Source: Bacteroidaceae bacterium (GTDB lineage Bacteria; Bacteroidota; Bacteroidia; Bacteroidales; Bacteroidaceae). Taken from it: DNA of 64,000 nt. The stretch covers positions 186,001-250,000 of the forward strand of contig JAFYPU010000010.1 in assembly GCA_017547385.1 (NCBI GenBank). Reading direction: 5' to 3'. The position numbers and the translations under genes were made by a program. Shown here in pieces: positions 4,358 to 52,918 of this stretch (position 1 is the stretch's first letter; each line of letters opens with the position of its first letter). Under the pieces are notes generated by a model, which saw nothing but the letters and a program-made list of their open reading frames with translations, ran no database searches and had not been told where the DNA came from.

Positions 4358-4420
4358 GTGGCAGGCCTTGCCACAAAAGTGGAGAGCACTGCCACAAAAG
4401 TGGCAAGGCCTGCCACTTTT
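4358..4420. repeat. 63-bp intergenic repeat, family A (3 x 21 bp)
   Basis: Three consecutive 21-bp units, each a near palindrome bounded by GTGG and CCAC: GTGGCAGGCCTTGCCAC, GTGGAGAGCACTGCCAC and GTGGCAAGGCCTGCCAC, separated by AAAA. Units 1 and 3 are inverted copies, so the whole element is a large palindrome. A copy with only two mismatches in 63 bases lies at 28203-28265. The site is between the convergent asnA and lipoprotein genes. Function unknown. Confidence 0.9.
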
Positions 4421-4493
4421 CGGGAAACGGCATGGCGTTTTCATCAAAACCGAACATCGTTTCACCGAAACTGCTCCGGCACTTACACATACA

Positions 4494-4531
4494 AAGCGAC
4501 CGCCGACAAAGATGCTTGTCGGCGGTCGCTT
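4494..4531. terminator. Bidirectional terminator between asnA and lipoprotein gene
   Basis: A perfect 16-bp inverted repeat (AAGCGACCGCCGACAA at 4494-4509, complement at 4516-4531) with a 6-base loop, placed between two convergent genes. Confidence 0.8.
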
Positions 4532-4544
4532 ATGCTATGAGGGA

Positions 4545-5252
4545 TTATTGCTTTTGCTTTTCCTTCTGCGTAACCTTGATGGGTGTGCTCACGCCATTCG
4601 ATGAGAGCGTCAGCGTGGCAGTGCGCGACACTGCAAAAGCATTGGGTTCAACACTCAACAGGGCTTCGTGCGTGCCGGCAGCATACACCGTATCTTTCTG
4701 CACCAACCAAGCTGCATCGCTCTGAAGGGTGGCACCATCGGCATAGACACGGAATTTCACTTTCATTGAAGTGGTATCAGCTGAAAGTGTTGTCATAAAA
4801 CTCACCTGCTTGTCCATGATGGTTCCGGTGCTTGCATCGCCCACAGCCTCGGGCTTGTTGATATAAACCGGCGAGGGCCAAATGATGTTCAGCCATGCTG
4901 TTTGATAAACATCCATGGCCAAAGAACCGAAAGACTTGAGCAGGATGGCGGCATGGCGCGTCTGGCCCGTGGTGTTGGGAGCACAAGTGAGTTTCACCAA
5001 TGTGTTCATGCCATAACCGGCAGGGATGTGCTGCTCTGCGGGAGTGAGCGAAAGCCAATCGGCAGTGGTCTGCGCCGTCCACGAGTCGTAAGAAATGACA
5101 CGCGTGGTGTCGAGCGTCTGGTCCGCATACATCATTTTTCCGCCGGGTTGCTGCGGGTAGAAATAAGTCTGGTGATACTCATAGGAACTTTCCGTGCAAG
5201 CGGCAAAGCACAGAACCATCACCGAAATGAGGAGAGGAAAAACTTTTTTCAT
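4545..5252 (-). CDS. Lipoprotein with BACON-like domains
   Basis: A 235-residue protein with a lipoprotein signal peptide ending LCFAAC, cysteine near residue 19, so it is probably anchored to an outer or inner membrane face. Residues of about 50-110 (SWTAQTTADWLSLTP...HAAILLKS) have the spacing of a BACON domain (an Ig-like fold of Bacteroidetes surface proteins), and the C-terminal third (VSRTATLTLSSNG...IKVTQKEK) looks like a second, degenerate one. BACON domains are thought to bind carbohydrate or mediate adhesion; no enzymatic residues are seen. It lies 50 bases downstream of the LptD-like gene on the same strand and could be co-transcribed. The function is not recognised beyond this. 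Confidence 0.7.
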   Translation of the reverse strand: MKKVFPLLISVMVLCFAACTESSYEYHQTYFYPQQPGGKMMYADQTLDTTRVISYDSWTAQTTADWLSLTPAEQHIPAGYGMNTLVKLTCAPNTTGQTRHAAILLKSFGSLAMDVYQTAWLNIIWPSPVYINKPEAVGDASTGTIMDKQVSFMTTLSADTTSMKVKFRVYADGATLQSDAAWLVQKDTVYAAGTHEALLSVEPNAFAVSRTATLTLSSNGVSTPIKVTQKEKQKQ

Positions 5253-5302
5253 ATTCTATCTTTATTGTTTGGGGATTTGCATTTCTGTCAAAGCCGATTC
5301 CA

Positions 5303-8203
5303 TCAATACCAATCGATGTTGGTGCTGTAGGAACTGCGCTTATCCCATTTCAGAACATCGGCCAATTCGCCGGAACGGGCTCGGAAGGAAAAGTTGAAAG
5401 ACGTGTAGGGACGCAACACCACTGAGCACGACATCTCGAAGCAATGCAAGTCGCGCGACAACGAGGCCGTGGTCATCGAGATGCGCTTCATCTCAAAGTC
5501 ATAACCCGAGGTGAAATTGATGTTCCAGCCATCGGCAATGCGGATGAAGCCTGAGGCATTCAGCGACTGGCTGAACGAATAGGGGTAACGCATTCGGCGA
5601 ACATTGATGTCCTTGCTGCGGTCTTCAAACATGGAGATGCCATAAGAGAGCGACAGCGACCAGGGAATGGAGAATGCCATGTAGCCGTCTGCATCTACTT
5701 TGGCCTTCACTTTCTGCTTCTTCTGGCGTTGCGAAGCCTTGATGTCGGGGTCTAAGTTTGCCTCATCGGCATCAACTTCGGCATTGTCAGCGTATGCATC
5801 TCCGTTTTCGGTATTCTCTCTGCCACGTTTGCCGCTGAAAAGATTGCACAGCTTTTGCCAACTTTGGTTGTTGAATGTGTAGGATATGTTCTGCGCCATT
5901 CCCTGAAAACGTCCGAAACGTCCGTAGCTCCACTCCGTTCGGTCGCTCAGCACCACCTGCCCTCTGTCATTGAAGGCGTAAGCGTAAGTTGCGAAGAGTG
6001 CTGCCAGCGAGAACGTGTAGTTTTTTGTCAGCTTGAGGCGAACACGCATATTCAGGTCGCTCCACGGCCGTTGCTTGGCGGCCATGTTATAAGAAAGCGT
6101 TCCGGAAAGTTCGTCAATCAGGCTGATTTTTCTCTCTCCCGTGGAGTCGCGATCGCTGCGCACTTTCATCTCCACGTTGTTGGAAACCGACATCGAGACA
6201 AGCCCCTGCTTTGAGCCGGAGGGATAACTGAAAATGCCGTGCTGGTAAGGCGAATAAGTAACCGTGCTCACCGTTCCGTCAGCCTCCGTCCGCACGTAGC
6301 TGTCAATGTATCCGTGTCTTTCGGTCGTAAAGTCGGGAGCGTACGAAAAGCTTATGTTCGGTTTGAAGACGTGTCGAACAGCGATAATCTTGCTTCCGAA
6401 AAGTTTCTTCCAGGGTTTGTAGAAACCATAAAGCGTCGTATTGGCCGACACACCCACGCTCCAATCATACAAGTTGTAGAAGCCGTAAGTGGTGTCGCGC
6501 ACCTCTTCCTGTTTGTCCGTGTCCCACGAACGCATAATGCGGTTGGTGTACATAATGTCGCGGAAAGAAAAATTGGGCGACACATTGATGTATTTGAAAA
6601 GCTGGAACGTAGCGTCTATGGGGATGCGGTGCTGCATTCCGTTGCGCCAATCTTTAATCAGATTCGACTTGAAAAGCCGGTCTTCCTTTGTGGTGATGCT
6701 GTTGCTGAGCTGGCCGGTGTACGAAAGCGATATCTTTTCATACCAACGCTCTTTGCCCGCCATCCGTTTGCGACGGAATGGATACAAACGGTTCAAGGAA
6801 ATGCTCAAATCGGGCAGCGTAACAGCCAAAGAGGAATCGCGCATGTTCTGCGTAACGTTGAACGAGCCGGAAAGCGTCAGACCAATGCTCGGGAAGGTGT
6901 GCGACATGCTTACACTGCTGGCGCGTGTGCTCTGCGTATAGGCCAAAGGATTGTAAAGGCTTTGCACATTTTTGCGCTCATAGTTTTCCGATGCAAAATT
7001 CACACGGGCAGAAAACGACGTATTGGGCGAGGATTTCGAGTCCTTGGTGTGTGTCCACTGCACCTTAAGGCTCTTTGTTACGGAATAGTCGGGCATATTT
7101 TTCTCGCCCTCAACCGTATTGATATAGCTGATATAGAAATTTCCGTTATAATGATAGCGTTTCCGATAGTTCATTTCACCGCTCAGCCCCCAAGAGCCCT
7201 TGGTGTAAATCTCGCCGAGCAATTTCAGGTCCATGTAGTCGGAAAGCGCGAAATAGTATCCGCCATCTCGCAGATAGAAACCGCGTGTGGTTTCATCACC
7301 AATGGTAGGCATGATGAAGCCGCTCGAATACTTCTTGTTAAAAGGGAAATATCCGTAGGGGAGTGCTATCGGTGTGGGAACATCGGCCACATAAAGTTGC
7401 GTAGGTCCAAAAACAATATCCTTGCCAGGGCGAGCTTTGCCTCGCGAGAGTTTAAAATAGAAGTGGGGATGCTCGGCATCACAAGTGGTATAGGTAGCTT
7501 TTTCCAAATACAACGTACCATCGGCCGCGCGTTTTGAGTTTTGGCTGACCAAATAACCATTGCCCTGCTGTGTCGATACATTCGAGATGAAGCCTTTCTT
7601 GGTTTTGAAGTTGAAGCTCATCTTTTCGCTCTCATAGTCCTCAGAACCCTGCTTGTAAATCGGATTTCCCTCCATGGTTCCTGTGCTGTCGCGGCGGCCT
7701 TGCGCATGCACCAAACTACTGTCCATGTTCATCGTGATTTGGGCGGCATCCAGCTGCATATCCTGATAACCCACCTGAGCTTGGCCGTAGAGAATAGCCA
7801 AACCTGTTTCGGCATCATAGACAAGGGAGTCGGCTGCTTTATAATTGACCGGTGCATCCAGACCACTTGAGCGCTTTTTCACAGAATCAACTGAAAGCGT
7901 ATCTGTAACCTGTGGCAAACTGTCGCCCACGCCTTCGGGAATTTGTGTATCCCCTACAGACACACTATCGCGCACCACATAAGTTCCGGCAGGCCGAAAA
8001 CTGAAAACCGTATCGGGCATAGCCGTTTGCGAATGCTCCACAGGCAGCACCGAATCCGCATCCACACTGTCGCGCACTGAGGCCGTGTCTGCACCCATTT
8101 CGGACAGACACACCAAACGCTTATGGCCGGCTGCGAAGCTCAAAACCACAAGCAACGAAAACAAGGATATGACAACGGTTCTCAAATCCGGTAAATTCTT
8201 CAT
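5303..8203 (-). CDS. LptD-like LPS-assembly outer membrane protein
   Basis: A 966-residue protein with an N-terminal hydrophobic export signal (VVISLFSLLVVLSFAAG). Residues of about 120-240 form an OstA/LptA-like beta-jellyroll region (ADSLVYDAETGLAILYGQAQVGYQDMQ..., then TTCDAEHPHFYFKL), and the remaining roughly 700 residues are rich in alternating aromatic strands typical of a 26-strand LptD barrel (GYFPFNKKYSSGFIMPTIG, then many Y/F-terminated strands). Bacteroidetes annotators call this family putative LPS assembly protein LptD; the expected role is insertion of LPS into the outer leaflet with an LptE-like partner. An internal acidic insert (roughly residues 800-840) is lineage-variable. 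A -7 motif at 8262-8269 precedes it. Confidence 0.82.
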   Translation of the reverse strand: MKNLPDLRTVVISLFSLLVVLSFAAGHKRLVCLSEMGADTASVRDSVDADSVLPVEHSQTAMPDTVFSFRPAGTYVVRDSVSVGDTQIPEGVGDSLPQVTDTLSVDSVKKRSSGLDAPVNYKAADSLVYDAETGLAILYGQAQVGYQDMQLDAAQITMNMDSSLVHAQGRRDSTGTMEGNPIYKQGSEDYESEKMSFNFKTKKGFISNVSTQQGNGYLVSQNSKRAADGTLYLEKATYTTCDAEHPHFYFKLSRGKARPGKDIVFGPTQLYVADVPTPIALPYGYFPFNKKYSSGFIMPTIGDETTRGFYLRDGGYYFALSDYMDLKLLGEIYTKGSWGLSGEMNYRKRYHYNGNFYISYINTVEGEKNMPDYSVTKSLKVQWTHTKDSKSSPNTSFSARVNFASENYERKNVQSLYNPLAYTQSTRASSVSMSHTFPSIGLTLSGSFNVTQNMRDSSLAVTLPDLSISLNRLYPFRRKRMAGKERWYEKISLSYTGQLSNSITTKEDRLFKSNLIKDWRNGMQHRIPIDATFQLFKYINVSPNFSFRDIMYTNRIMRSWDTDKQEEVRDTTYGFYNLYDWSVGVSANTTLYGFYKPWKKLFGSKIIAVRHVFKPNISFSYAPDFTTERHGYIDSYVRTEADGTVSTVTYSPYQHGIFSYPSGSKQGLVSMSVSNNVEMKVRSDRDSTGERKISLIDELSGTLSYNMAAKQRPWSDLNMRVRLKLTKNYTFSLAALFATYAYAFNDRGQVVLSDRTEWSYGRFGRFQGMAQNISYTFNNQSWQKLCNLFSGKRGRENTENGDAYADNAEVDADEANLDPDIKASQRQKKQKVKAKVDADGYMAFSIPWSLSLSYGISMFEDRSKDINVRRMRYPYSFSQSLNASGFIRIADGWNINFTSGYDFEMKRISMTTASLSRDLHCFEMSCSVVLRPYTSFNFSFRARSGELADVLKWDKRSSYSTNIDWY

Positions 8204-8261
8204 TATTGCGACATCGTTGCTGAAGGCTTTTTAACCTCAGGCAAAGGCGTACAAAACGAAG

Positions 8262-8269
8262 CAAAAGTA
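8262..8269 (-). promoter_or_regulatory. -7 element for the LptD-like gene
   Basis: The minus strand reads TACTTTTG, matching TAnnTTTG, about 60 bases upstream of the start at 8203. Confidence 0.6.
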
Positions 8270-8383
8270 CATATAAAATATGAGAAAGCCGACCGGGTAT
8301 TTACAAATTAACGCTTTTTTCACCCGAAGCCATAGATGAAAATCAGGAATTGCATTCCCGATTTTGCGAAAACAGAAAAAGAA

Positions 8384-8929
8384 TTATTCAAAACGCTCCG
8401 CCCAAGCCAAAAAGCGTTGCACATCTTCCTCGCCAAACTTCTGAAGACTCTGTGCTGTTTGCTCAATGGTACGCTCGCGTTCCGGATGACTCTTGCTATA
8501 GAACTTGTCGGCGTAGCACACCACTTGTTCTTCGAGCGTTGCCGGCGCATAAATGCCCTCGGGAAGAGAAAGTCCGCGCTCACGAATACGTTCCATCGTC
8601 AGCCCCGTTCCGGTGTGTCGCTCACAAATGTGCGCAATAGCTCCCAGCTCTTCGGCACGCATCAATTGCGCTCCCAAATATCCATGCAGCAAATAGGGTT
8701 CCGTACCATGACAGTGAATGCCGGGAGCATCGGTCAGAAAAATTCCCACATCATGAAGCATGGCTCCGGCGCGCAACAGCGATTTATCCAACCCGAGTTC
8801 GGGATGCTTTTCTGCCACAAGCAAAGCACGCTCTGCCACTTGCCGACTGTGATGAAGCAAAAGGCGACGCAAGGCATTGTCTTCCGGATAATATTTGCGG
8901 ATAACGTCTATCGGGTCAAGGTTTTTCAT
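8384..8929 (-). CDS. HD-domain phosphohydrolase
   Basis: A 181-residue cytoplasmic protein starting MKNLDPIDVIRKYYPEDN. The start at 8929 is preferred over an in-frame codon at 8971, which would overlap the upstream S4-domain gene. HD-superfamily metal ligands are visible: His26/27 in LLLHHSRQVA, His59-Asp60 in GAMLHDVG, a further His in HICERHTG, and Asp in VVCYADKFYSKS. This order matches HDIG/YqeK-like phosphohydrolases, which act on nucleotides or related phosphoesters; the substrate cannot be told. It is the downstream end of a minus-strand run rplY-pth-hslR-HD and is probably co-transcribed with them. Confidence 0.85.
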   Translation of the reverse strand: MKNLDPIDVIRKYYPEDNALRRLLLHHSRQVAERALLVAEKHPELGLDKSLLRAGAMLHDVGIFLTDAPGIHCHGTEPYLLHGYLGAQLMRAEELGAIAHICERHTGTGLTMERIRERGLSLPEGIYAPATLEEQVVCYADKFYSKSHPERERTIEQTAQSLQKFGEEDVQRFLAWAERFE

Positions 8930-8967
8930 GCATCGGGAAATATGTGTAAAACTACAGGAAGACGAGT

Positions 8968-9393
8968 TCAATCATCGTCCTCGTCAAATTCAAAATCAGG
9001 AATATAGAGGGGAGTTTCGGCAAAGTCGTCCAACGCGCGGCGGTCTTTTTTGGTAGGACGGCCGGTGCCTCGTGCCCGATCCACAAAGCCACTGATGCGA
9101 CTCATCTCCAAAATTTCATACTGCTCAGGAGTCGTGATGTTTTCCAAAATCTCGGGCAACAGTTTCGCCCCCACACGCTTCTCGATGGCCTGCAACACCT
9201 TGAAGGTGTAGGTAATAGGCGGTTTTCGCACGGACACGCTGTCGCCAACTTTCACGGCACGCGAAGGTTTTGCCTGTGCACCGTTGATGGCCACACGTCC
9301 ATTCTTGCAAGCATCAGCTGCCAATGTACGTGTTTTGAAAATGCGGGCTGCCCACAGCCATTTGTCAAGACGAGCTTCGGTAGAGGTTGCCAT
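8968..9393 (-). CDS. S4-domain RNA-binding protein (HslR family)
   Basis: A 141-residue protein whose residues 8-65 form an S4 RNA-binding domain (RLDKWLWAARIFKTRTLAADACKNGRVAINGAQAKPSRAVKVGD, quoted in outline by its ends RLDKW and KVGD). The Bacteroidetes-type tail is basic then acidic, with RARGTGRPTKKDRR and a terminal FDEDDD. E. coli HslR (Hsp15) binds free 50S subunits carrying stalled nascent chains; this is the family expectation. It lies 17 bases downstream of pth, fitting a translation-quality-control cluster. Confidence 0.87.
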   Translation of the reverse strand: MATSTEARLDKWLWAARIFKTRTLAADACKNGRVAINGAQAKPSRAVKVGDSVSVRKPPITYTFKVLQAIEKRVGAKLLPEILENITTPEQYEILEMSRISGFVDRARGTGRPTKKDRRALDDFAETPLYIPDFEFDEDDD

Positions 9394-9410
9394 AAGTTGC
9401 GAGAGTCGTT

Positions 9411-9974: not shown

Positions 9975-10042
9975 CCGGTTTGTTCAGAATTAAGAAGGCG
10001 CAGCCAACATGGGTTGACTGCGCTCTAAAAATTTCAGAATGA

Positions 10043-10642: not shown

Positions 10643-10736
10643 AATTTGTGTTACTCTAAATTAAGTGTTTGTAAAGTTTGCTTAATTCGCCATCACACAC
10701 GGGGCACGCTCTGCCCCGGTCGGGTCAAATCGGCGG

Positions 10737-10744
10737 CAAAGGTA
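10737..10744 (-). promoter_or_regulatory. -7 element for rplY
   Basis: The minus strand reads TACCTTTG, matching TAnnTTTG, 95 bases upstream of the rplY start; a weak TTG-like -33 (minus ATTG) lies 23 bases further upstream. Confidence 0.6.
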
Positions 10745-10795
10745 CACATTTCTTTTGGTTCGGCAATCACAAGCTGCCGAAATGTTTATGCGCGT

Positions 10796-11164: not shown

Positions 11165-11287
11165 AAGGGTTAGAAAAAATCATATCATTTCAGGCGATGC
11201 GCACATCAGCCGTTCGTTTGCCGCCACACGCGGAGCAAGTTGCTGACACTTTGCCGAAAAAACCGAGGCACAACGAGCAAAAATTTA

Positions 11288-11350
11288 CAAGCACTGCAGA
11301 TTTTTCTGCAAGCACTGCGGAAAATTCTACAAGCACTGCAGATTTTCGCA
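11288..11350. repeat. 63-bp intergenic repeat, family B (3 x 21 bp)
   Basis: Three 21-bp units, each starting CAAGCACTGC (third and sixth bases after that vary: CAGATTTTT, GGAAAATT, AGATTTTC). Bases 11305-11347 are an exact 43-bp inverted match to 33843-33885. It sits about 200 bases upstream of the nusB promoter in the DUF3276/nusB divergent gap. The rest of this gap holds only the nusB promoter and no gene. Confidence 0.88.
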
Positions 11351-11545
11351 GAAGCACAAGCCTTTTTCGCCCACTCGAACAAGAGACACGAGGTCGGCAC
11401 TTCGGAAACTGCAAAAAGATGCCCCAGAAGCCTTCACGCTCCGCCCAATCCTCTGTTTTGCTCATTCGATAAGGCAAATTTGCACTCAAATTCCCTAAGT
11501 TCCAAAAAAAGATGTGATAAAATAGCCGGCGAGAGGCTTTTTTTG

Positions 11546-11587: not shown

Positions 11588-12520
11588 ATGATAAACAGAG
11601 AACTCATCAGACTTAAAATCGTGCAACTGGTCTATGCTTTCTATCAAAACGAAGGCAAGACACTTGATGTTGCGGAGAAAGAGCTCATCTTCAGCCTTGA
11701 CAAAGCCTACGACCTTTATTGCCACTTGTTGGGCTTGCTCGTCGACTTACAGAAAATGGCGGAAAGAAAGAATGAAGCACGCATCGAACGCGACAAACGG
11801 CTCAAGCAAGAGAGCACCGGCATATTCCCCGACGAAAAGATGGCTTCCAACCAATTCCTGTTGCAACTGCGTGCCAACACCGCCCTGTTGCAATATCGCG
11901 AAAAGCAAGGCGACTTTTGGGAAGAAGAAGACGCATTCGTGCGCAAACTCTATAAGTCATTCACCGAAAGCGACATCTTCCAGCTATACTTGGAGAAAGA
12001 AGATTTCAGCTTCGAGGCCGATCGCGAATTGGTGCGCAAGCTCTACAAGTATCTGGTTTGCAACAACGAGGATCTCGACGCCGTGCTTGAAGAGCGCAGT
12101 CTTTACTGGAACGACGACAAGGAAATCATCGACTCCTTCGTGCTTAAGACCATCAAACGCTTCACGCCCGAAAGCGACGAGAGCCAACCGCTCCTGCCGG
12201 AATACACTTCGGAAGACGACCGAAACTATGCCATCTCCTTGTTCCGTGAGGCACTGACACGCTCCGACGAAGTGCGCGAACTCATCAAGCAAGGCACAAA
12301 AAACTGGGATTTCAGCCGATTGGCCTTCATGGATGTCATCATCATGCAGATTGCCCTGACCGAAATCATGACCTTCCCGTCGATACCCCTCAGCGTGAGT
12401 TTCAACGAATATCTCGACATTGCGAAGGTGTATAGCACACCGCGAAGCGCATCCTACATCAACGGAACGATGGACAACATCGTGAAGCAACTCAAATCTG
12501 AAGGCAAACTCTTAAAATAA
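11588..12520 (+). CDS. nusB: Transcription antitermination factor NusB
   Basis: A 310-residue protein starting MINRELIRLKIVQLVYAFYQNEG. The NusB fold is split: the N-terminal helix is typical, and the C-terminal 130 residues carry the conserved core (NWDFSRLAFMDVIIMQIALTEI, in part; then PSIPLSVSFNEYLDIAKVYSTPRSASYINGTMD, in part). A long insert between gives the double size (E. coli NusB is 139) that is normal for Bacteroidetes. It works with NusE on rRNA boxA antitermination. It is first in a nusB-yajC-ybbR-coaE cluster. The start at 11588 is chosen because of the promoter at 11546. Confidence 0.93.
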   Translation: MINRELIRLKIVQLVYAFYQNEGKTLDVAEKELIFSLDKAYDLYCHLLGLLVDLQKMAERKNEARIERDKRLKQESTGIFPDEKMASNQFLLQLRANTALLQYREKQGDFWEEEDAFVRKLYKSFTESDIFQLYLEKEDFSFEADRELVRKLYKYLVCNNEDLDAVLEERSLYWNDDKEIIDSFVLKTIKRFTPESDESQPLLPEYTSEDDRNYAISLFREALTRSDEVRELIKQGTKNWDFSRLAFMDVIIMQIALTEIMTFPSIPLSVSFNEYLDIAKVYSTPRSASYINGTMDNIVKQLKSEGKLLK

Positions 12521-12527
12521 ACATACA

Positions 12528-18153: not shown

Positions 18154-18615
18154 ATGAAACGCTACTCTTTCGCTCCCGTACAGGCACGCCCGTTCCCCAC
18201 CCTGCACGAGCTTGATAATCCTTGGATTTTCGGCAACGTCCGCTCCATTATCAATGTCAGCGAGCGCACATCCGAGGCCTTAATCACCGAATACGAGCGA
18301 CGCGGCATCGCCTATCACCACTTTCCCCTCAGCGAAGAAACCGACGACATCGGTTGGACCAACCTCCTGCTTGCCGTCGACGTGCTCCGCAACAACGTTC
18401 TCCACAACGTGCCTACCATCGTGCACTGTATGTGCGGCAACCACCGCAGTCGCCTTGTGGTGGAAGCCACTCATTACTCGTTGACCGGACAGCACCTGGA
18501 GGATCCCTACAAAGGAGCACCCAACCACCTGCTTTATAACCTCGAACACGGTCATTTCCCTCTCACTCGCGAAGCGGCTGAAAACCAATTATGTATATTT
18601 AAGCCCCATCCTTGA
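18154..18615 (+). CDS. Tyrosine/dual-specificity phosphatase-like protein
   Basis: A 153-residue protein with a CX5R active-site loop HCMCGNHRSR around residues 90-99 (C-M-C-G-N-H-R) preceded by the IVH strand typical of PTP superfamily P-loops. An N-terminal stretch, IFGNVRSIINVSERTSEAL (in part), resembles the region before the catalytic Asp of small dual-specificity phosphatases. The loop has an extra Cys and lacks the usual glycine run (CxxGxxR), so it may be a divergent or polyphosphate/lipid-type enzyme. The substrate is unknown. Its stop codon abuts a 21-bp-unit repeat. Confidence 0.65.
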   Translation: MKRYSFAPVQARPFPTLHELDNPWIFGNVRSIINVSERTSEALITEYERRGIAYHHFPLSEETDDIGWTNLLLAVDVLRNNVLHNVPTIVHCMCGNHRSRLVVEATHYSLTGQHLEDPYKGAPNHLLYNLEHGHFPLTREAAENQLCIFKPHP

Positions 18616-18677
18616 AAATCTGCAAGGCGTTTAGAAAATTCCGCAGTGCTTGTAGAATTTTCTAAACGCCTTGCAGA
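18615..18677. repeat. 63-bp intergenic repeat, family B variant (3 x 21 bp)
   Basis: Outer units are perfect 24-bp inverted copies (18616-18639 AAATCTGCAAGGCG... and its complement ending at 18679); the middle unit contains CCGCAGTGCTTGTAGA, shared with the family B copies at 11288 and 33844. It begins at the last base of the phosphatase stop codon and may also act as that gene's terminator hairpin. Confidence 0.85.
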
Positions 18678-18724
18678 TTTCACGGGCAAGCCACCCCCAC
18701 ACACTCCGAGTGCGTTCACAAGAT

Positions 18725-18793
18725 AGGCTGCGGCTCGGAAGAAAAAGAAAAACAAGTTTTCCTTTGTTCTCCGCTCGCCTTGCACTATCTTTG
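18725..18793 (+). repeat. Promoter-carrying repeat (copy 1), upstream of tRNA-Arg
   Basis: Begins GGCTGCGGCTCGGAAG and ends CTCGCCTTGCACTATCTTTG. Related copies are at 28339-28408 and 28424-28496. It contains TTTG (18763-18766) and TATCTTTG (18786-18793), 23 bases apart start to start, so it should act as the promoter for the tRNA-Arg gene starting 17 bases later. An internal A-rich/T-rich inverted repeat is present. Confidence 0.8.
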
Positions 18794-18809: not shown

Positions 18810-18883
18810 GGCTCCGTAGCTTAGCTGAATAGAGCGTCAGATTCCGGTTCTGAAGGTCCTGGGTTTGAATCCCAGCGGGGTCA
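18810..18883 (+). tRNA. tRNA-Arg (anticodon CCG)
   Basis: A complete cloverleaf: acceptor GGCTCCG / CGGGGTC (two G-T pairs), D arm GCTT...GAGC, anticodon stem TCAGA/TCTGA with loop TTCCGGT giving anticodon CCG, and T arm CTGGG-TTTGAAT-CCCAG. Discriminator base A at 18883; the CCA end is not encoded. It reads CGG codons. A strong terminator follows. Confidence 0.95.
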
Positions 18884-20862: not shown

Positions 20863-20925
20863 AAAGATAGTGCTCATCTATGCCAACGATGAGCACTATC
20901 TTTGGCATAGATGAGCACTATCTTT
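20863..20925. repeat. 63-bp intergenic repeat, family C (3 x 21 bp)
   Basis: Perfect 24-bp inverted outer arms (20863-20886 and 20902-20925, beginning AAAGATAGTGCTCATC) enclose a 15-base middle (CGATGAGCACTATCT) that repeats the inner part of the right arm, so the left arm can pair with either partner. It lies 223 bases upstream of fucI. The rest of the 517-base gap from 20631 holds a terminator (20666-20708) and no recognised gene. Confidence 0.88.
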
Positions 20926-28163: not shown

Positions 28164-28198
28164 AGCGCAGACAGGCTTTTTCTGTCTGCGCTTTCTTA
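28164..28198 (+). terminator. Terminator of the fucose operon
   Basis: AGCGCAGACAG (28164-28174) and CTGTCTGCGCT (28182-28192), a perfect 11-bp stem followed by TTCTTATTT. Confidence 0.8.
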
Positions 28199-28202
28199 TT
28201 TA

Positions 28203-28265
28203 GTGGCAGGCCTTGCCACTAAAGTGGCGAGCACTGCCACAAAAGTGGCAAGGCCTGCCACTTTT
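28203..28265. repeat. 63-bp intergenic repeat, family A (3 x 21 bp), second copy
   Basis: Matches 4358-4420 at 61 of 63 positions, same orientation. It lies directly after the fucose-operon terminator. Confidence 0.9.
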
Positions 28266-28338: not shown

Positions 28339-28408
28339 AGGCTGCGGCTCGGGAAAACAAAAAGAAAACTTCTTTTTCCTTTTGTTCTCCTCTCGCCTTG
28401 CACATTTG
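28339..28408 (+). repeat. Promoter-carrying repeat (copy 2), degenerate promoter
   Basis: Starts AGGCTGCGGCTCGGG and runs to CTCGCCTTGCACATTTGG. It has an AACAAAAAGAAAA / TTTTTCCTTTTGTT hairpin. The -7 position is broken (CACATTTG instead of TAnnTTTG), so this copy is probably inactive. Confidence 0.75.
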
Positions 28409-28423: not shown

Positions 28424-28496
28424 AGGCTGCGGCTCGGGAAAACAAAAAGAAAACTTCCTTTTCCTTTTGTTCTCCTCTCGCCTTGCACTACTTTTG
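28424..28496 (+). repeat. Promoter-carrying repeat (copy 3), promoter of trkH
   Basis: A tandem copy of 28339-28408, with TTTG at 28466-28469 and TACTTTTG at 28489-28496 (23 bases start to start). It lies 40 bases upstream of the trkH ATG and is the likely trkH promoter. The 398-base gap between fucP and trkH is otherwise the terminator, the family A repeat and copy 2. Confidence 0.8.
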
Positions 28497-33843: not shown

Positions 33844-33906
33844 AAAATCTGCAGTGCTTGTAGAATTTTCCGCAGTGCTTGCAGAAATTTCTACAAGCAC
33901 TGCAGA
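33844..33906. repeat. 63-bp intergenic repeat, family B (3 x 21 bp)
   Basis: Units AAAATCTGCAGTGCTTGTAGA (one unit), ATTTTCCGCAGTGC..., AATTTCTACAAGCACTGC...; outer units are inverted 20-bp copies. A partial unit (AAAATCCGCAATGC) lies just before it. It is in the 533-base divergent gap between clpB and the outer-membrane protein gene; the rest of the gap shows only the promoter at 34019. Confidence 0.88.
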
Positions 33907-34018
33907 TTTCACCTCCAAGCACAGCCCGAAAATGCCCCTGCATCTGCCATTTTTTCGCAAACAACAAGCACAATTCCAAAAAATGCTTGAAAGCCCATAG
34001 GTTTATGAAAGTTTTTTC

Positions 34019-46800: not shown

Positions 46801-48502
46801 TAGATATGTTACCACGTGAAAATACATTCGTAACAGTCGCATCATGGATTTCACCGGCAAGCACCCCAGCGCGGATGCTCTTTTCATTGAAGGGGTCGCT
46901 CTGCACTCTGGCGTTGATTACGCCTAAATTCTTCAATGTGCCAAAATTGAATCTTGAGAAGAGTCCTGCCTCGCGACCATCGGTAACATGTACATTCAGA
47001 TTCTTAATCACATGATTGTTACCATCAAACACTCCTTTATAATGGTTATCTATATAGGGCTCAACCGCTTCATTAAAGTAAGCAATTGGAGTCCACTTAC
47101 GGTTTTCAAGGTCAATATCAGCAGTCAAAACAGCATGAGCACTGTAATTACCCAAGTTGACATAATTGGCAAACCAGAAGAGTTGCCCAGCATTACCAAT
47201 TTCATAATAACCATCACTGTTGCTATCTACTGCAGGTTCGTATGCTCCACACTTCGTGCAAATACCATTTGTAAAACTATGGTCGCTCTCGCTTGAACAT
47301 ACTGCCTGAATAGTAAATGCATTCCACAGCTCTTGTGATTGATAATCCGCTACAGAAGTACTTGGAACATAAATAGGCACGCTTAAGTTCATTGTTGCAA
47401 AAGCTTCGCCCCATAACCCAGGAGGAGGAGTTGTTGCCAAACAAGTCAGCGAAGTCAATTTGTTACAATCAAAAAAAGCATAACTTTGAATTGCAGTCAA
47501 AGTACTCGGCAATATCAAAGATGTAAAAGAGCAATTACGAAATGCCCACTGACCTATTTCTGTAACACCTTCAGGAATATTGAGGACTGACAAGTTTCTA
47601 CAATCAGCAAACGAGTATTCACCAATTCTGGTTACTCCCTCTGATAAATTTACGGTTTTAAGATTTCGGCAAGTGTAAAAAGCACTCCAACCGATTGTTT
47701 TTACACTTGGGGGAAGAGAAACGACAATAAGACCATCGCAGTATCCAAACGCATGAGTACCCAAGGAGGTAACGCCATTAGGAATAACCACGTCAGCAAT
47801 TTTACTGCATTCATTAAACGCATAATGACCTACGCTTGTCACTCCTGACTTAATCGTCAACTTTACAATCTCATCTTTGTGAGAGTACCACGGAGCTGTA
47901 CCTGCTTCAAAATCATACATCGCTCCAGTACCTTCAATTACCAATTCGCCATCGGTAAGATTCCAGGTAAGGTTATCTCCGCAAGAATTCTGCGGCACAT
48001 CTTTCTCATTAATGAACAACATATCCTTACCTTCCACCAGTTGCTCCGGAAGCTTCAGGTAAGCTTTATACGCAGAGTTCGTAAACGGAAAGTTTGTTAC
48101 CTTGTACCAAATCGCATCGTCTTCATTAAATTGGTAATAAGCGTATCCTTCCTCTACGTCGACATTGGTATTCATCAAACTGCCTTCCAGCATGTTGCCT
48201 GTCCAATCGGAAGTTGTTTCTGATGCATAGGTGAGTGAGAAAGAACCTTCTCCCTTCAGTATCACGCCTTCCCCGGCCGAGACATCTGCCTTCTCAACCA
48301 ATGTGAGCACATCTGCCTCCACACCTTCCACGGCATAGGCTTTAACTGCGTTGGGGAGGGAAGCAGCAAAGGGTGCGTAAAAGGTTGTGTAACCGGAAGC
48401 TCCGGCATCAACCGGCAACTCTATAGCCTCTGCCCGAGTGCCGATAGGAACCATCATCGCTACAAGGATAGCGATTAGGAATGATAGGATTTTTTGTTTC
48501 AT
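43847..48502 (-). CDS. Large BspA-like mosaic surface protein, 1551 residues
   Basis: A secreted protein with a signal peptide (residues 1-24, ending TRAEA). Domains in order: an N-terminal region (25-170); a BspA-type entry motif (CGDNLTWNL...GAMYDF, about 174-200); five or six LRR_5 repeats (about 215-385, e.g. VTSIGxxAFxxCxxLxxVxIP); a GLUG/adhesin-like section (420-620); a SYGDGWESG domain (~680-790); a right-handed beta-helix-like stretch (~800-1000); two InlB-B/Listeria-Bacteroides repeats (VAFDANGG and LVFSANGG, ~1060-1190); a second SYGDG-like domain; and a C-terminal tail TGVDGININ...VYDISGRCV...GIYIVNGKK resembling a T9SS sorting signal. Base composition is AT-richer than neighbours. 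Role: adhesion to host or matrix, inferred. Confidence 0.8.
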   Translation of the reverse strand: MKQKILSFLIAILVAMMVPIGTRAEAIELPVDAGASGYTTFYAPFAASLPNAVKAYAVEGVEADVLTLVEKADVSAGEGVILKGEGSFSLTYASETTSDWTGNMLEGSLMNTNVDVEEGYAYYQFNEDDAIWYKVTNFPFTNSAYKAYLKLPEQLVEGKDMLFINEKDVPQNSCGDNLTWNLTDGELVIEGTGAMYDFEAGTAPWYSHKDEIVKLTIKSGVTSVGHYAFNECSKIADVVIPNGVTSLGTHAFGYCDGLIVVSLPPSVKTIGWSAFYTCRNLKTVNLSEGVTRIGEYSFADCRNLSVLNIPEGVTEIGQWAFRNCSFTSLILPSTLTAIQSYAFFDCNKLTSLTCLATTPPPGLWGEAFATMNLSVPIYVPSTSVADYQSQELWNAFTIQAVCSSESDHSFTNGICTKCGAYEPAVDSNSDGYYEIGNAGQLFWFANYVNLGNYSAHAVLTADIDLENRKWTPIAYFNEAVEPYIDNHYKGVFDGNNHVIKNLNVHVTDGREAGLFSRFNFGTLKNLGVINARVQSDPFNEKSIRAGVLAGEIHDATVTNVFSRGNISIITDHHQKGGIAGECNYSYMNNCYTAYGTLTDTNVRGCSNCFYLADEVNANSAGTAVTAAQMASGEMAYKLGAAYGQTIGTDALPVLGGPQVYYGYTSCKAAEKIYTNDASVTAEKQHNYVDGVCTECGKVYEPKITITMNDSYGDGWESGAAINIKKDGVSVALATIEFGKPDGIFTMEYSPTSQYEFLWVRGGQFDNECSFVISLDDQTLFTGELNGSWLNNTETPFYTMAACEATWGASFERQTSWGTYSEAISAAEAGRAVYVKLNKDVTSVTEIHSGTFTLDVNGHVMRVNDYVLNIQGANVTITDSSEAPVGILHNNNYWHRAIMASNGATVYIEKVQVMGAGAVEVLDASNVTIASGTYCSTMHPTVENKSGTLTILGGTFQTETEATVTSIKSAIRTTISGGVFAEGYDATIIYETGVLDLSGYANPAGISVYTYDDVPLGASTISLPTDYLFFNGEEAATEVLNSGTKYTIRNAEVFTVAFDANGGTGEMEDVSTYSDYRLPECTFTAPEGMGFKAWLVNEVEYQPNDVITITENTTIMVVWATPCTLVFSANGGVGSLVALKTLSTVTLPECPFLAPEGKEFKAWRIGENEYAAGSVATLTENAVAYAVWKDAVVAMGTFTLMLEDMMAESLSRLQNLSYYTVTKDGELVATIKLSDDYAILQTLEYDPNCEYAFYWHTGGNPHESPYVWIRLNGESLFDNFGAELENRPADEPFLFIPRKTQDSRVATLNIIDGELPEYLVLREAEVGMLTYTRTLPNQEWNALYLPFEIPVSELEENYDVAYFNDVHSYDTDNDGDIDEMEMEIIKIAEGTLKANHPYLIRAKTEDAKAMSLVLTDVIICCTTENNHSVTCSSAYMQFEVAGTYAQMKQENYPEILSISTTGEWMKMAEGTALNPFRLHLTLTTREGSPVKVEPSATRSIRIRSIDESETTGVDGININEQQSMAVYDISGRCVKNPVKGIYIVNGKKVMLK

Positions 48503-48641
48503 AAATTATTATTATTTTGGTTTAAGAATAAATGTATTCTGCAATGAGTGTTTCTTATGGCGCATCCAAAGAAACATTTCCGTTGATCCCGACAGCAAGT
48601 CCTAAACAGAAATTGCTCAAACGTCTATAAGCCAACACAAA

Positions 48642-48684
48642 AGCACCACCGCAAGGCACAATTTATGCCTTACGGTGGTGCTTC
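48642..48684 (-). terminator. Terminator after the 48802 gene
   Basis: AAGCACCACCG (48642-48652) and its complement CGGTGGTGCTT at 48674-48684, with further inner pairing (CAAGGCA/TGCCTTA). It lies downstream of the minus-strand gene at 48802-49521. The 299-base gap to 48502 also has a run of eight G (48714-48721); nothing else is recognised. Confidence 0.7.
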
Positions 48685-48801
48685 GTGTTATGCCTACCCT
48701 TCTCCCACTTACAGGGGGGGGTAGATATTGCTCTATCTTTCAGCGATTTACGCATTCTGGATGTAAAGTTAGAGTTAGAACTTTGTTTGTCGTTATTTCC
48801 C

Positions 48802-49521
48802 TTATCTCACCGCCCGCTTGTGGCCGTCGATGATGTAGATGCCGGGGGCAGTGATGCGGTGAAGGCGCGTGCCGGTGAGGGTGTAGATGCCGGAGCGTGA
48901 AGGGACGGCGGTCATCGCGCTAGTGATGCCGGCGGGTGTTTCGCAAGCTTCAAAGAAGACGCGCGAACCTTCGTCGCGGCTGCCATTGGCATTGTAGAGG
49001 CCCATCTGCGGCCCTGCCGTTGCCCAATTGCCGTTGTGGCTGAGGAAGGTCTTGCCGTCGGAGGTTCTGAAGGCATAGGCGCTGCCGGTCTTGTCGAGCT
49101 GCCATGTGTAGAAGTCGTTGGTGCGTTCGGCTTCGGTCTGCATATAGACTTTCTTGGCTCCGTCCGCTGTATTGGCCACGGTAATCATGCGGCCGTCGGC
49201 GGCAGAGATGATTTTGATGTTGCCATCGGCGGCTTCCATGAAATACCATAGTTGCGCCGGGTTGGCCTGATTGGGGTTGGGATACATCAGCTGGAGCTTG
49301 TGCACGGTCTCACCATAGGGAATTTCGTTGGTGAAGACGCAACCGCCGGCAACACCCTGGCCGTCACGACCCGTGTAGATGTAATAGAGTGCAGGCTCTT
49401 CGGCATTGGCAGTTATCACGAAGGGATAGTCCTCCGCCGGAACTGCTGACATCAAACTCTGCGCCGTTGCCGCAGTGAACGAGATAAAGAAAAGGGCACA
49501 GAGGAGTGTAAAATGTTTCAT
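48802..49521 (-). CDS. Secreted protein with T9SS-like C-terminal tail
   Basis: A 239-residue protein with a signal peptide (ending AATAQ, about residue 21). The central part (YIYTGRDGQGV..., AQLWYFMEAADGNIKIISAADGRMITV, in part) resembles ricin-B/RICIN-like or CBM13 carbohydrate-binding folds with Q-W-x-F spacing. The last 30 residues, RSGIYTLTGTRL...APGIYIIDGHKR, resemble the tail of the BspA-like protein and look like a Bacteroidetes type-A sorting signal. A promoter is at 49549. The substrate is unknown. Confidence 0.65.
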   Translation of the reverse strand: MKHFTLLCALFFISFTAATAQSLMSAVPAEDYPFVITANAEEPALYYIYTGRDGQGVAGGCVFTNEIPYGETVHKLQLMYPNPNQANPAQLWYFMEAADGNIKIISAADGRMITVANTADGAKKVYMQTEAERTNDFYTWQLDKTGSAYAFRTSDGKTFLSHNGNWATAGPQMGLYNANGSRDEGSRVFFEACETPAGITSAMTAVPSRSGIYTLTGTRLHRITAPGIYIIDGHKRAVR

Positions 49522-49548
49522 AGGCTTTATATAATTAGTTGCTTAGGG

Positions 49549-49556
49549 CAAAAGTA
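49549..49556 (-). promoter_or_regulatory. -7 element for the 48802-49521 gene
   Basis: The minus strand reads TACTTTTG, 28 bases upstream of the start at 49521. Confidence 0.6.
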
Positions 49557-49644
49557 CACGTAATTTGTTGGTTTCGCAAATTGATGTCCGCAAAAAGGCG
49601 CTTACGCCGGACTATATCCATCGTCAGCTGAGAGTCGCCTCGTC

Positions 49645-50562
49645 TTAAAGTCCGGCCACCCAATTCCGATAAAACGTTTTGGCAGCTTCCTCCCAGCTGA
49701 AACAGATGCCGGCATCGGGATCGTCGGCATGATAATAGTGCTCGGGGCGATGGATGGGCAGACTCTTTGCCACGTCGCGGCGATATTCGTTGTCGAGGGT
49801 ACGGGGTTCGTATTCCAGGTGGCCGGTGATATAGACCTCGCGCCCATCTTCGGTAGCAGCCAAGCCCACTCCGCTTTCTTCGCTCTCGGCCAGAATGTGC
49901 AGGGAGTGCGAGGGGAAATCCTCGGCACGCACTTCGGTGTGGCGGCTGTGCGGCATGGGAAAAGCAGGATGCAGGTCTGCCAACAGCCCCCGCAACGGCT
50001 GTGAGGGCAGGTGGGCAGGAACGTTGTGCCGATAGATGCCGAAGCGCTTGGCAGGCAAGGTGTGTTTGGGCACACCATAATTATAATATAGCCCAGCCTG
50101 TGCGCCCCAACAGATGTAGAGCGTGGAACGCACGCTGCCGGCTTTGGCCCAATCGATGATGCGACACAACTGCTGCCAATAGCGCACCTGCTCGAAGGGC
50201 AAGTGCTCAACGGGCGCACCGGTGATGATGAGTCCGTCGAAGGAGAGGTGCTCCAGCGTTTCGAAGTCCAGATAGAACCGCTGCATGTGCTCCATGGGAG
50301 TTGTCTTATAGGTCTGTCCGGCTATCTTCATCGGGATGAGCACCACATCCCGACCCGAGGCTGCCATCATGCGAGCGATGTCGAGTTCGGTAACGGCTTT
50401 CTGCGGCATGATGTTGAGGAAAAGGATTTTCTTTGCCGCATGCGGAAAGGCAGCACAAGCATCGGCGGCAGCGTGCAGGCATGCTTTGTCATATTCGCTC
50501 ACGGCTGCGCCCTCTGCCATGAGGGTGGATGTGCAGGGAATGTCTTTGGGAAGATATAACAT
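49645..50562 (-). CDS. metA: Homoserine O-acetyltransferase, MetA type
   Basis: A 305-residue homoserine O-acyltransferase of the glutamine-amidotransferase-like MetA family. The catalytic Cys151 is in YICWGAQAG, with the His of GHLEYEP. The residue known to set acyl-CoA preference is Glu119 in GAPVEHLPFEQV, the glutamate form that gives acetyl-CoA rather than succinyl-CoA use, so the product is predicted as O-acetylhomoserine. It feeds methionine synthesis through MetB/MetY. It starts 5 bases after the ABC-F stop and is probably co-transcribed. Confidence 0.93.
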   Translation of the reverse strand: MLYLPKDIPCTSTLMAEGAAVSEYDKACLHAAADACAAFPHAAKKILFLNIMPQKAVTELDIARMMAASGRDVVLIPMKIAGQTYKTTPMEHMQRFYLDFETLEHLSFDGLIITGAPVEHLPFEQVRYWQQLCRIIDWAKAGSVRSTLYICWGAQAGLYYNYGVPKHTLPAKRFGIYRHNVPAHLPSQPLRGLLADLHPAFPMPHSRHTEVRAEDFPSHSLHILAESEESGVGLAATEDGREVYITGHLEYEPRTLDNEYRRDVAKSLPIHRPEHYYHADDPDAGICFSWEEAAKTFYRNWVAGL

Positions 50563-50567
50563 GAGGC

Positions 50568-52505
50568 TTAGAGGTTTTCAAGGTTTTCGATGGCACATTC
50601 CCAAGCGGCTTCGGCTTCAGAGAGCCGTGCTTTCAGGGTGGCATGCTTTGTGAAGAGGCTTGCATCGGTGGCTCCCTCGGGGGTGGAGAGGGCGTTTTCC
50701 ACTTCTTCCACTTCGGCCTCGATGCGCATCACTTCGGCTTCGGCTTCTGCCACCTGTTGTTCGGCTTTGCGGCGCAGGCGCGCTTGCTCTTTCTGTTGTT
50801 CGTAAGAAAGACGGCCTTCCGACACGGGCGCAGCGGCAGTGCTTTGAGCACCCACCGACGGGCTTCCTGCCGACGAGAGAGCTGTTCCCTCGGCTGCGGC
50901 AGCCTCGCTCTTGGCCAGAAAATCGTAGATGCCGCCGATGTGCTCGCGCACGCTGCCTCCGCCAAACTCATAGACCTTCGACACGAGTCCGTCCAGAAAT
51001 TCGCGGTCGTGGCTCACCACAATCACCGTTCCATCAAAGGCACGGATGGCCTCACGCAGCACGTCCTTGGTGCGCATGTCAAGGTGGTTGGTGGGTTCGT
51101 CAAGGATGAGGAAGTTGACGGGTTCGAGCAGGAGCTTAATCATGGCCAATCGGCTGCGCTCGCCACCGCTCAGCACCTTGACGCGCTTGTCGGCAGCCTC
51201 GCCGCCAAACATGAAAGCCCCCAGGATGTCGCGGATGCGAAGGCGCACATCTCCGGTGGCCACGCGGTCGATGGTGTCGAAAACGGTGAGCTCGCCATCC
51301 AGCAGTTGTGCTTGGTTTTGCGCATAGTAGCCTATCTCCACGTTGTGCCCGATGCGCAGGCTTCCGTCGTGGGGTATCTCCTGCATGATGCACTTCACGA
51401 GGGTGGATTTTCCCTCGCCGTTGCGCCCCACAAAGGCCACCTTTTCGCCGCGTTCGATGGTGAGGTTCACGCCACTGAAGACGGTGTGCGCTCCGTAGCT
51501 TTTGCCCACTTCCTCGCAGATGACGGGATAGTCGCCGGAGCGTGTGCAGGGCGGGAACTTCAGGTGGAGCGATGCCGTCTCCACCTCGTCCACCTCGATG
51601 GGCACCATCTTTTCGAGTTGCTTGATGCGGCTCTGCACCTGTGCCGCCTTGGTGGGTTTATAGCGGAAGCGTTCGATGAAGTCGCGCAGGTCTGCCATTT
51701 CCTTTTGTTGGTTTTCGTAGGCTCGCAACTGCTGTTCGCGACGTTCGGCACGCAGTTTCACAAATTCGTCATAACGCACCCGATAGTCGATGATGCGACC
51801 GCAGGATATTTCGAGGGTGCGGTTGGTGGCGTTGTTGATGAAAGCACGGTCGTGCGACACCAGCACCACAGCCCCTGCCGAGCGTGCCAGAAAGCCCTCG
51901 AGCCAGCGAATGCTCTCGATGTCAAGGTGGTTGGTGGGCTCGTCCAGCAACAGCACGTCCGGACGGCTCAGCAGGAGTTTGGCCAGCTCGATGCGCATGC
52001 GCCAACCGCCACTGAATTCGCTCGTAGGCCGATGAAAATCATCACGGCTGAAGCCCAGGCCCTGCAGCGTGCGCTCCATCTCGGCCCGATAGCCCTCACC
52101 GCCCATCATCTGCAGACGTTCGGTTTCGTAAGTGAAGCGTTCCACCAGCTGCATATAGTCCTGGCTGTCGTAGTCGGTACGTTCGGAGAGTTCGTCCCCC
52201 AGCCGCTGCACGCGCTCCTGCATTTCGCCGATATGCGCAAAGGCTTTCTCGGTCTCCTCCATCACGGTGCATTCGTCGCTGAGCACCATCACCTGCGGCA
52301 GATAAGCCACGCTGATGCCGCGCTCCACGGCCACGTTGCCGTGCGTGGGCACTTGCTGTCCGGCCAGGATTTTGAGCAAGGTGCTCTTGCCTGCACCGTT
52401 CTTTCCCACCAGGGCCACGCGGTCCTTGCGGTTGATCACAAAAGCGGCATCGCTGAAGAGCGGACGCACGCCGAATTCCACACCCAAAGCTTCTGCTGAA
52501 ATCAA
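50568..52505 (-). CDS. ABC-F family ATP-binding cassette protein
   Basis: A 645-residue soluble protein with two ATPase domains: Walker A GKNGAGKST and signature FSGGW in the first, and GRNGEGKST and LSGGER in the second, joined by the P-site linker (residues about 245-320, R/E/Q-rich). ABC-F proteins act on the ribosome (EttA/Uup-like) or, in some members, confer ribosome protection. The start is the TTG at 52503-52505: the frame continues upstream but has no ATG, the sequence ISAEALGVEFG matches the family N-terminus, and an AGGAGG lies 7 bases before it. The C-terminus has a coiled coil (EQQVAEAEAEVMRIEAEVEEVE, in part). Confidence 0.92.
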   Translation of the reverse strand: MISAEALGVEFGVRPLFSDAAFVINRKDRVALVGKNGAGKSTLLKILAGQQVPTHGNVAVERGISVAYLPQVMVLSDECTVMEETEKAFAHIGEMQERVQRLGDELSERTDYDSQDYMQLVERFTYETERLQMMGGEGYRAEMERTLQGLGFSRDDFHRPTSEFSGGWRMRIELAKLLLSRPDVLLLDEPTNHLDIESIRWLEGFLARSAGAVVLVSHDRAFINNATNRTLEISCGRIIDYRVRYDEFVKLRAERREQQLRAYENQQKEMADLRDFIERFRYKPTKAAQVQSRIKQLEKMVPIEVDEVETASLHLKFPPCTRSGDYPVICEEVGKSYGAHTVFSGVNLTIERGEKVAFVGRNGEGKSTLVKCIMQEIPHDGSLRIGHNVEIGYYAQNQAQLLDGELTVFDTIDRVATGDVRLRIRDILGAFMFGGEAADKRVKVLSGGERSRLAMIKLLLEPVNFLILDEPTNHLDMRTKDVLREAIRAFDGTVIVVSHDREFLDGLVSKVYEFGGGSVREHIGGIYDFLAKSEAAAAEGTALSSAGSPSVGAQSTAAAPVSEGRLSYEQQKEQARLRRKAEQQVAEAEAEVMRIEAEVEEVENALSTPEGATDASLFTKHATLKARLSEAEAAWECAIENLENL

Positions 52506-52512
52506 AATCGGT

Positions 52513-52518
52513 CCTCCT
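52513..52518 (-). promoter_or_regulatory. Shine-Dalgarno AGGAGG fixing the TTG start of the ABC-F gene
   Basis: The minus strand reads AAGGAGG ending 7 bases before TTG at 52505. Strong Shine-Dalgarno sequences are rare in Bacteroidetes, so this decides the start. Confidence 0.75.
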
Positions 52519-52568
52519 TGTCTGTTTATATTATATAAATGTACGCGCACGCGGAGCGTATCAAGGAG

Positions 52569-52576
52569 CAAAAGTA
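52569..52576 (-). promoter_or_regulatory. -7 element for the ABC-F/metA unit
   Basis: The minus strand reads TACTTTTG, 63 bases upstream of the TTG start; transcription beginning just after it would exclude upstream start codons. Confidence 0.65.
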
Positions 52577-52693
52577 GTGCACCGGCGGATTATCACCAAG
52601 CCTGCAACCGCTTTTTCTTGCGTTGCCGACACAACAAGAAGCCCACGGCATGCCCTCGCAGCGCATTCGGGAGCATTGAGAAGCATTCTCGAT

Positions 52694-52800
52694 GCAGTAT
52701 CTCGGCGTGACACTGCAGTATCACGGCTTGACACTGCAGTATCATCGGCTTGATACTGCGGTATCTCCGGCATGACACTGGAGTATCTCCGGCTTGATAC
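52694..52800. repeat. Intergenic repeat, family D (five 21-22-bp units)
   Basis: Five units starting GCAGTATC, GCAGTATC, GCAGTATC, GCGGTATC and GGAGTATC, with CGGC(T/A)TGA(C/T)ACT at the end, spaced 21, 21, 22, 22 and 21 bases. It is followed directly by AAATCTGCAGTGCTT (52801-52815), which is a family B unit. It lies in the 503-base divergent gap between the ABC-F gene and 53009; the rest of the gap has the two promoters. Confidence 0.85.
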
Positions 52801-52918
52801 AAATCTGCAGTGCTTCCGGCCACTTTGCGCCCCCTTTCGCAGCTCCTCGTCATGCCTCTCGCAGTGCGCCGCTCGGCAAGTTTCGCAGCACAGACTTGTC
52901 CGAGCAAGTTATTCTTCT

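Follow-up and report, generated by a model that had tools for sequence, protein, structure and literature searches.

The described systems closest to the elements presented here are the BrickBuilt and MITE464/PgRS repeats of Porphyromonas gingivalis, which, like them, are intergenic Bacteroidales sequences built from tandem units with inverted ends (PMC4596501). The repeat units are given as 23 nt in BrickBuilt and also as 22 and 41 nt, and the opinion of an earlier note on this DNA, that no family of such architecture was known, was nearly right, these repeats coming close to it (PMC4596501). BrickBuilt is reported in 19 copies of up to 22.8 units, with a non-repetitive leader and tail, terminal inverted repeats that are IS5-like and, in some cases, target duplications (PMC4596501). 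PINSR of Prevotella intermedia is an intergenic repeat present at 177 and 184 copies; of its positions, some three quarters are conserved between strains. It measures 188 bp, is said to be without terminal inverted repeats, and no 21-bp units are reported in its description (PMC4755523). REP, BIME and REPIN sequences, associated with RAYT, are described as short, palindromic, intergenic, high in copy number and of mixed orientation (PMC6006769). Among the open-licence papers listed in our searches, none describes the wider class discussed below, and none comes nearer to it than those on the P. gingivalis repeats and PINSR. Plasmid iterons and phased operator arrays are direct repeats at about two helical turns, which are bound side by side by protein.

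The window, that is, the whole 64-kb stretch analysed here, covers positions 186001-250000 of contig C9 in an assembly of 2.35 Mb (34 contigs, 86.5% complete; hereafter G000). The best named matches of its AsnA protein are mostly Bacteroidales metagenome genomes, the first being a Bacteroidaceae bacterium at 78%. To describe the elements we built four unit models by eye, A (CTGCAAGCACTGCAG), G (CTGCAAGGCGTTTAG), R (GTGGCAAGGCCTGCCAC) and M (GTGGCAAGCACTGCCAC), with lower case for inverted units. Seven elements were found in the window, all intergenic and listed without a strand: one lies in a convergent gap, three in divergent gaps (11280, 33844 and 52693) and three in tandem gaps (18615, 20863 and 28202). 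Six had been pointed out before, and direct reading and a repeat search recovered every one of them, with units 1 and 3 inverted in five elements and all units direct in the one at 11288. Their reported location between genes, in convergent, divergent and tandem gaps, was also borne out in all cases, with a 1-base overlap of a stop codon at 18615. The reported unit length of 21 bp is exact in five of the six, the pitch being about 22 bp at 20863.

Two elements belong to the GTGGC family and are 97% alike over 64 nt. The first, at 4357..4420, has the unit string rMR, with units beginning at 4358, 4379 and 4400, and occupies the convergent gap that separates asnA from a BACON-domain gene; the second, at 28202..28265, is also rMR and lies in a tandem gap flanked by an MFS gene and trkH, with a separate terminator-like hairpin upstream at 28164-28192. 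The CTGCA family has three members. The element at 11280..11346 consists of direct units AAA (at 11284, 11305 and 11326) in the divergent gap between a DUF3276 gene and a gene at 11588. The element at 18615..18680 (Gag), in which inverted outer CTGCAAGGCGTTTAG units enclose an AGTGCT unit, lies in a tandem gap, overlaps the stop codon of the ORF 18154-18615 and has a tRNA downstream at 18810, and the element at 33844..33909 (aaA) is in the divergent gap upstream of clpB. The GATAGTGCTCATC-type element at 20863..20925, an GATAGTGC element by direct reading, has outer 28-nt arms that are 96% complementary and lies in a tandem gap 5' of an L-fucose isomerase gene. The array at 52693..52797, in a divergent gap, has about five 22-bp units of the TGACACTGCAGTATC type; it is of the same class as the other six elements and of a different family. 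A scan of the window with Rfam detected two tRNAs and nothing else.

The census covered 864 kb of G000, comprising the first 464 kb (discovery set) and 400 kb of held-out sequence. We detected 100 clusters of at least two units, of which 81 have three units, 17 have two and 2 have four; the discovery set contributed 52 clusters (41 three-unit) and the held-out set 48 (40 three-unit and none above three). The units of the triplets start at offsets 0,21,42 (47 cases), 0,20,41 (33) or 0,22,42 (1), patterns that represent a single register, as the G model begins one base later. The outer ends are inverted in many copies and direct in others. A or G units are present in 85 of the 100 clusters, and G000 also holds 21-22-bp families of the ATCATGCGCATGA, TGCAAGCCTTGCAATATATAT, GTATC/GATAC and GATAGTGCTC types. 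Searched over the whole genome on both strands, AGTGGCNNGCACTGCCAC gave 165 matches with up to 3 mismatches against 38 for its reversed control, and CTGCAAGCACTGCAGAAAWTTC gave 196 with up to 2 mismatches against 0. In a single first-order Markov shuffle of the 864 kb there were no inverted three-unit calls, compared with 77 in the real sequence, and one array, of period 11. These data agree with the dispersed family of 21-bp pitch that had been postulated, for which copy number across the genome and spacing in other copies had been named as the test, and both favour it. Extrapolation from 115 cassettes in 864 kb gives about 300 in G000.

A second dispersed element was also observed, at 28341-28400, 28426-28485 and 18727-18782 of the window and in loci L332-L355. 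Its pattern, CAAGGCGAGNGGA-n15..45-CCGAGCCGCNGC, has 24 exact matches in the genome and 0 for the reversed control. The feet are constant and the stem-loops vary with compensation. In most copies the outer stem takes in the CTATCTTTG end, which is promoter-like, and there are several tandem pairs about 85 bp apart.

To compare species, we scanned noncoding DNA for arrays with at least 70% self-identity over two units at periods of 11-45 bp, with no period preferred; 57 genomes of the same genus were searched besides G000. In 13 species of the genus, 109 of 132 noncoding arrays had a period of 21-22 bp. When G000 and its sister species G017 were removed, 25 of 40 did, and 10 of the 11 remaining species contributed to these; among the 10, G042 is counted on a heptamer repeat alone and has a true array near clpB. 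The flanks of clpB, the DUF3276 gene and asnA (77 loci) yielded 22 noncoding arrays, 20 of them at 21-22 bp and some already counted. Pooled with duplicates removed, 123 of 148 distinct arrays from 47 species of the genus fall at 21-22 bp; 22 of the species have at least one such array, and 25 have none in the DNA sampled, mostly a few kb each. The single-contig genome G004 had no 21-22-bp array in 160 kb. The period scan of 80 named loci from Bacteroidales, which took the place of an earlier detector that also caught ordinary hairpins, found 62 arrays, 17 of them with periods of 21-23 bp; 100 kb of E. coli, used as control, contained a single array, at 15 bp. The counts include simple repeats, namely most of the 14-bp arrays, the 21-bp array of G042 in locus L258 and probably a 21-bp one in L111. 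Intergenic heptamer repeats of the AATTGAG and GTGAACA types are frequent in the named Bacteroidales loci (L070, L083, L090, L092, L097 and others) and give rise to a period-14 peak in the scan. In a 13-kb locus (L117) of a Bacteroidaceae metagenome genome we also observed three intergenic arrays, differing from one another, whose 41-bp units come close to four helical turns (3266-3388, 8356-8478 and 8584-8706).

The recurring feature among these arrays is the pitch. Loose grouping by six shared 9-mers placed the pooled arrays in 28 families, 22 of which were confined to a single species; three of the six shared families involve G000 and G017, and the others link G010 with G011, G042 with G055 and G054 with G021. 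The arrays of related species have the same spacing and mostly different sequence, which suggests that spacing matters more than sequence. The proposed common origin through an AGCACT or GCACTGC core fits the families of G000 and G017, while the likeness of arrays in other species is mostly one of pitch. Dyad symmetry of the unit was significant (p<0.05) in 12 of 52 families, so palindromy is common and not required, and we rejected the palindromic unit as a universal feature in favour of a tendency. The 21-22-bp arrays lie close to a whole number of helical turns.

The elements are also regular in number per gap. With genes called by a hexamer model trained on long ORFs, all families counted and elements less than 15 bp apart merged, only 2 of 113 occupied gaps of G000 hold two elements, and about 20 would be expected under random placement by length. 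In the discovery set 56 gaps have one element and 1 has two, where 10.1 doubles were expected and none of 5000 simulations gave fewer than 4. The corresponding figures are 55 and 1 for the held-out set (10.6 expected, simulated minimum 3) and 47 and 1 for the sister species (8.8 expected, simulated minimum 2). Since neighbouring elements were merged and back-to-back pairs do occur (loci L028-L030 on contig C7, and the clpB gap of G017), the result is best worded as one site per gap. Occupancy in G000 rises from 2 of 109 gaps under 120 bp to 82 of 139 of at least 300 bp, and increases no more above 600 bp.

Divergent gaps hold 32 of the 99 placed clusters. We used the box TAnnTTTG, which we take to be the Bacteroides -7 box, to predict promoters. 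For 43 of the 63 sides of these 32 elements a sense box is found between the element and the start codon, and an antisense box for 11. In 51 tandem gaps the box occurs between the element and the next gene in 36 and between the stop codon and the element in 3, a contrast that partly reflects the unequal lengths of the two intervals. The elements therefore occupy the space between transcription units and, where the gap is divergent, lie mostly beyond the predicted promoters on both sides, which makes a role at the DNA level more likely than one at the RNA level.

Our preferred reading, to which we give a probability of roughly 0.42, is that the elements are helically phased arrays at transcription-unit boundaries, bound by a putative protein and spread by some copying process. 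The two-turn pitch across different sequences suggests proteins aligned on one face of B-form DNA, and the usual number of units, the single site per gap, the placement outside transcripts and the persistence between species described below together suggest a boundary role. Copies in many unrelated gaps indicate that a copying process exists; that near-identical copies need such a process, outside the scope of the phased array itself, counts against this reading. So do the back-to-back pairs, the 25 species without a 21-22-bp array in the DNA sampled, G004 among them, the fact that palindromic units are a tendency, and the six families shared by more than one species. Of the two candidates of the earlier note, the evidence favours the array for a DNA-binding protein over the REP/MITE-like element.

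A mobile origin was weighed by comparing G000 with its sister species G017, which has the same element families (AsnA, 91%; aligned DNA blocks, 74-92% identical). This alternative supposes a non-autonomous MITE- or REP-like element whose ends are inverted, whose interior is made of tandem units and which a transposase mobilises in trans, any effect on neighbouring genes being secondary; we consider it possible, on the unlikely side. It would account for many near-identical copies in unrelated gaps with outer ends often inverted, and BrickBuilt sets a precedent with its terminal repeats and occasional target duplications (PMC4596501). It is also consistent with the confinement of the A and GTGGC families to the two sister species: the A pattern has 196 matches in G000, 142 in G017 and 0 in the other 56 genomes of the genus, and outside G000 and G017 the GTGGC pattern has one chance-like match in each of two genomes (58 genomes in total). 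Against it, 26 of the 33 occupied gaps among 98 orthologous ones are occupied in both species, with 5 occupied only in G000, 2 only in G017 and 65 in neither. A structure-only detector, applied to 65 gap pairs, gave a lower agreement of occupied gaps between the two species (both 16, one-sided 10 and 4, neither 35), a point against the boundary-array reading.

Precise presence or absence of elements in orthologous gaps had been proposed as a check, and in this comparison with one sister species no clean 63-bp insertion and no clean empty site was seen in six aligned gaps out of the seven that differ; the seventh, C4_77041, differs by 272 bp. One gap called as occupied only in G017 (C26_27656) has the array in both species when aligned, with one unit more in G017. 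Of five usable gap pairs with more distant species of the genus, three lack an element on either side and two have one in G000 alone, which also weighs against the boundary-array reading. Inspection by eye found no conserved flanking sequence in the loci examined, and random insertion predicts far more gaps with two elements than exist, unless there is target immunity. The expected association with a Y1-type (RAYT/TnpA-REP) gene did not hold either. Y1, the only transposase family searched, was counted in nine genomes and does not track the arrays (1, 1, 1, 2, 0 and 5 genes in G000, G017, G010, G004, G003 and G024); in G004, for example, the two Y1 genes go with a lack of arrays over 160 kb. 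The 3.3-kb locus of the single Y1 gene of G000 contains no three-unit element. The RAYT link is not supported by these data. That Y1 gene (locus L131, contig C21 near 52498) is flanked, by eye, by its own GC-rich hairpin-like sequence of the GGGGCTGTGCCCC type, which differs from the 21-bp elements.

In place, the elements persist between the sister species while their flanks diverge. For 17 orthologous elements at the same offset, including two pairs out of register, identity is 79%, or 85% when unit flips are allowed, compared with 53% in the 25-bp flanks. In 19 pairs of triplets (57 units), 21 A units are unchanged and 10 flipped (10 of 31), and none of 14 G units is flipped (0 of 14; A versus G, Fisher p 0.019); R or M units are flipped in 2 cases, and 10 of the 57 units switched class. 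The arms of A units are palindromic and those of G units are not, and flips in the former with none in the latter fit loop inversion by template switching. Loop inversion together with multiple compensatory changes is a described signature of template switching in RNA hairpins (PMC8794818), and the process has also been described for inverted repeats (PMC8604942). Arrays change in other ways as well: a TATATAT array changed more, by eye, than the remainder of its 92%-identical gap, and the clpB gap of G017 (contig C9; locus L273 near 1175-1237) holds an array of about four TATATAT-family units next to an A-family element that has decayed, the A-family element in the corresponding gap of G000 being intact. 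The G017 gap looks like a replacement of the A element by the TATATAT array in progress.

A further alternative is a self-maintaining palindromic minisatellite, whose units would be made, corrected and flipped by template switching during replication with no selected function. The confinement of flips to units with palindromic arms, the description of loop inversion and multiple compensatory changes as template-switch signatures (PMC8794818) and the excess change in the TATATAT array all speak for it. We nevertheless judge it unlikely, as it leaves unexplained the 21-22-bp pitch across different sequences, the usual number of units, the single site per gap, the existence of families that lack dyad symmetry, those of G002 for example, and the spread of A or G units to 85 of 100 clusters.

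Folded as single-stranded DNA, five of the six named elements form long hairpins (z -9.5 to -11.9) flanked by A and T runs, the direct-repeat element at 11280 folds poorly (z -1.83), and one terminator-like site lies within the 4357 element. Elements of the G...g class stay close to the stop codon both in tandem gaps (median 42.5 nt, versus 78 nt for A-outer elements) and in convergent ones (median 50 nt, versus 118 nt). They appeared to avoid divergent gaps in the discovery set (0 of 10 versus 10 of 15 for A-outer elements, p 0.001) and in G017 (p 0.004, not independent). This hypothesis, fixed after the held-out stretches had been fetched and before their analysis, failed on them (4 of 14 versus 3 of 12, Fisher p 1.0) and was rejected. 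Bidirectional terminators or mRNA 3'-end hairpins, to which the folding and the proximity to stop codons would point, are very improbable and were rejected as a general explanation, given the copies in divergent gaps, mostly beyond the predicted promoters (where the earlier doubt about a simple terminator role stands), the poor folding of direct copies, the separate hairpin preceding the 28202 element and the failure on held-out data.

In the boundary-array reading, a cassette would be a few DNA sites two helical turns apart in the spacer between transcription units. One or more putative oligomeric or dimeric DNA-binding proteins would lie on one helix face across the units, and the bound array may serve as a boundary that holds back, for instance, supercoiling or transcription running in from a neighbour. 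Template switching at palindromic arms would flip unit cores and leave the outer arms complementary, and new families could arise, be copied to other gaps and displace older ones. Rather doubtful to us is the broader proposal of a Bacteroidales-wide class of boundary elements in which geometry and not sequence is inherited, with about one cassette per spacer, families that replace each other, units that flip, and putative proteins that either keep up with the changes or recognise the shape and phase of the DNA. Should the boundary reading be right, about 300 cassettes would mark the transcription-unit spacers of G000, with relatives marked likewise by mostly different sequence, and part of Bacteroidales chromosome organisation would open to direct test. 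It would also offer a natural case in which helical spacing is separated from sequence, and the P. gingivalis repeats, described for one species group, would join a wider class. The flips of units in place seem to offer a clean instance of template-switch mutation occurring naturally in bacteria.

The known systems share some of these features. The cassettes resemble REP, BIME and REPIN sequences in their short palindromic repeats, intergenic position, copy number and mixed orientation, and differ in having a fixed 21-bp triplet pitch, a Y1 gene not flanked by them and apparently no common GT[AG]G foot across families: by eye, GTGG lies within the stem in the GTGGC family and is absent at the foot in the CTGCA, TATATAT and other families. 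Unlike iterons, they are dispersed between chromosomal operons, often have an inverted outer unit and mostly differ in sequence between species. With PINSR they have in common the intergenic location, the copy number and the conservation of most positions, and they are set apart from it by their length, inverted ends and 21-bp units. The tandem, intergenic, inverted-end organisation of BrickBuilt is found here at a pitch of 21-22 bp, and both share whole-unit gain or loss and restriction to one species group (PMC4596501). Mostly three units per cassette, no conserved leader or tail by eye in 30 loci (several overlapping) or in orthologous gaps, about 300 copies by extrapolation, unit flips and nearly one site per gap distinguish the present elements from it. 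As the 22-, 23- and 41-nt pitches of P. gingivalis match those found here, its repeats are likely members of the wider class.
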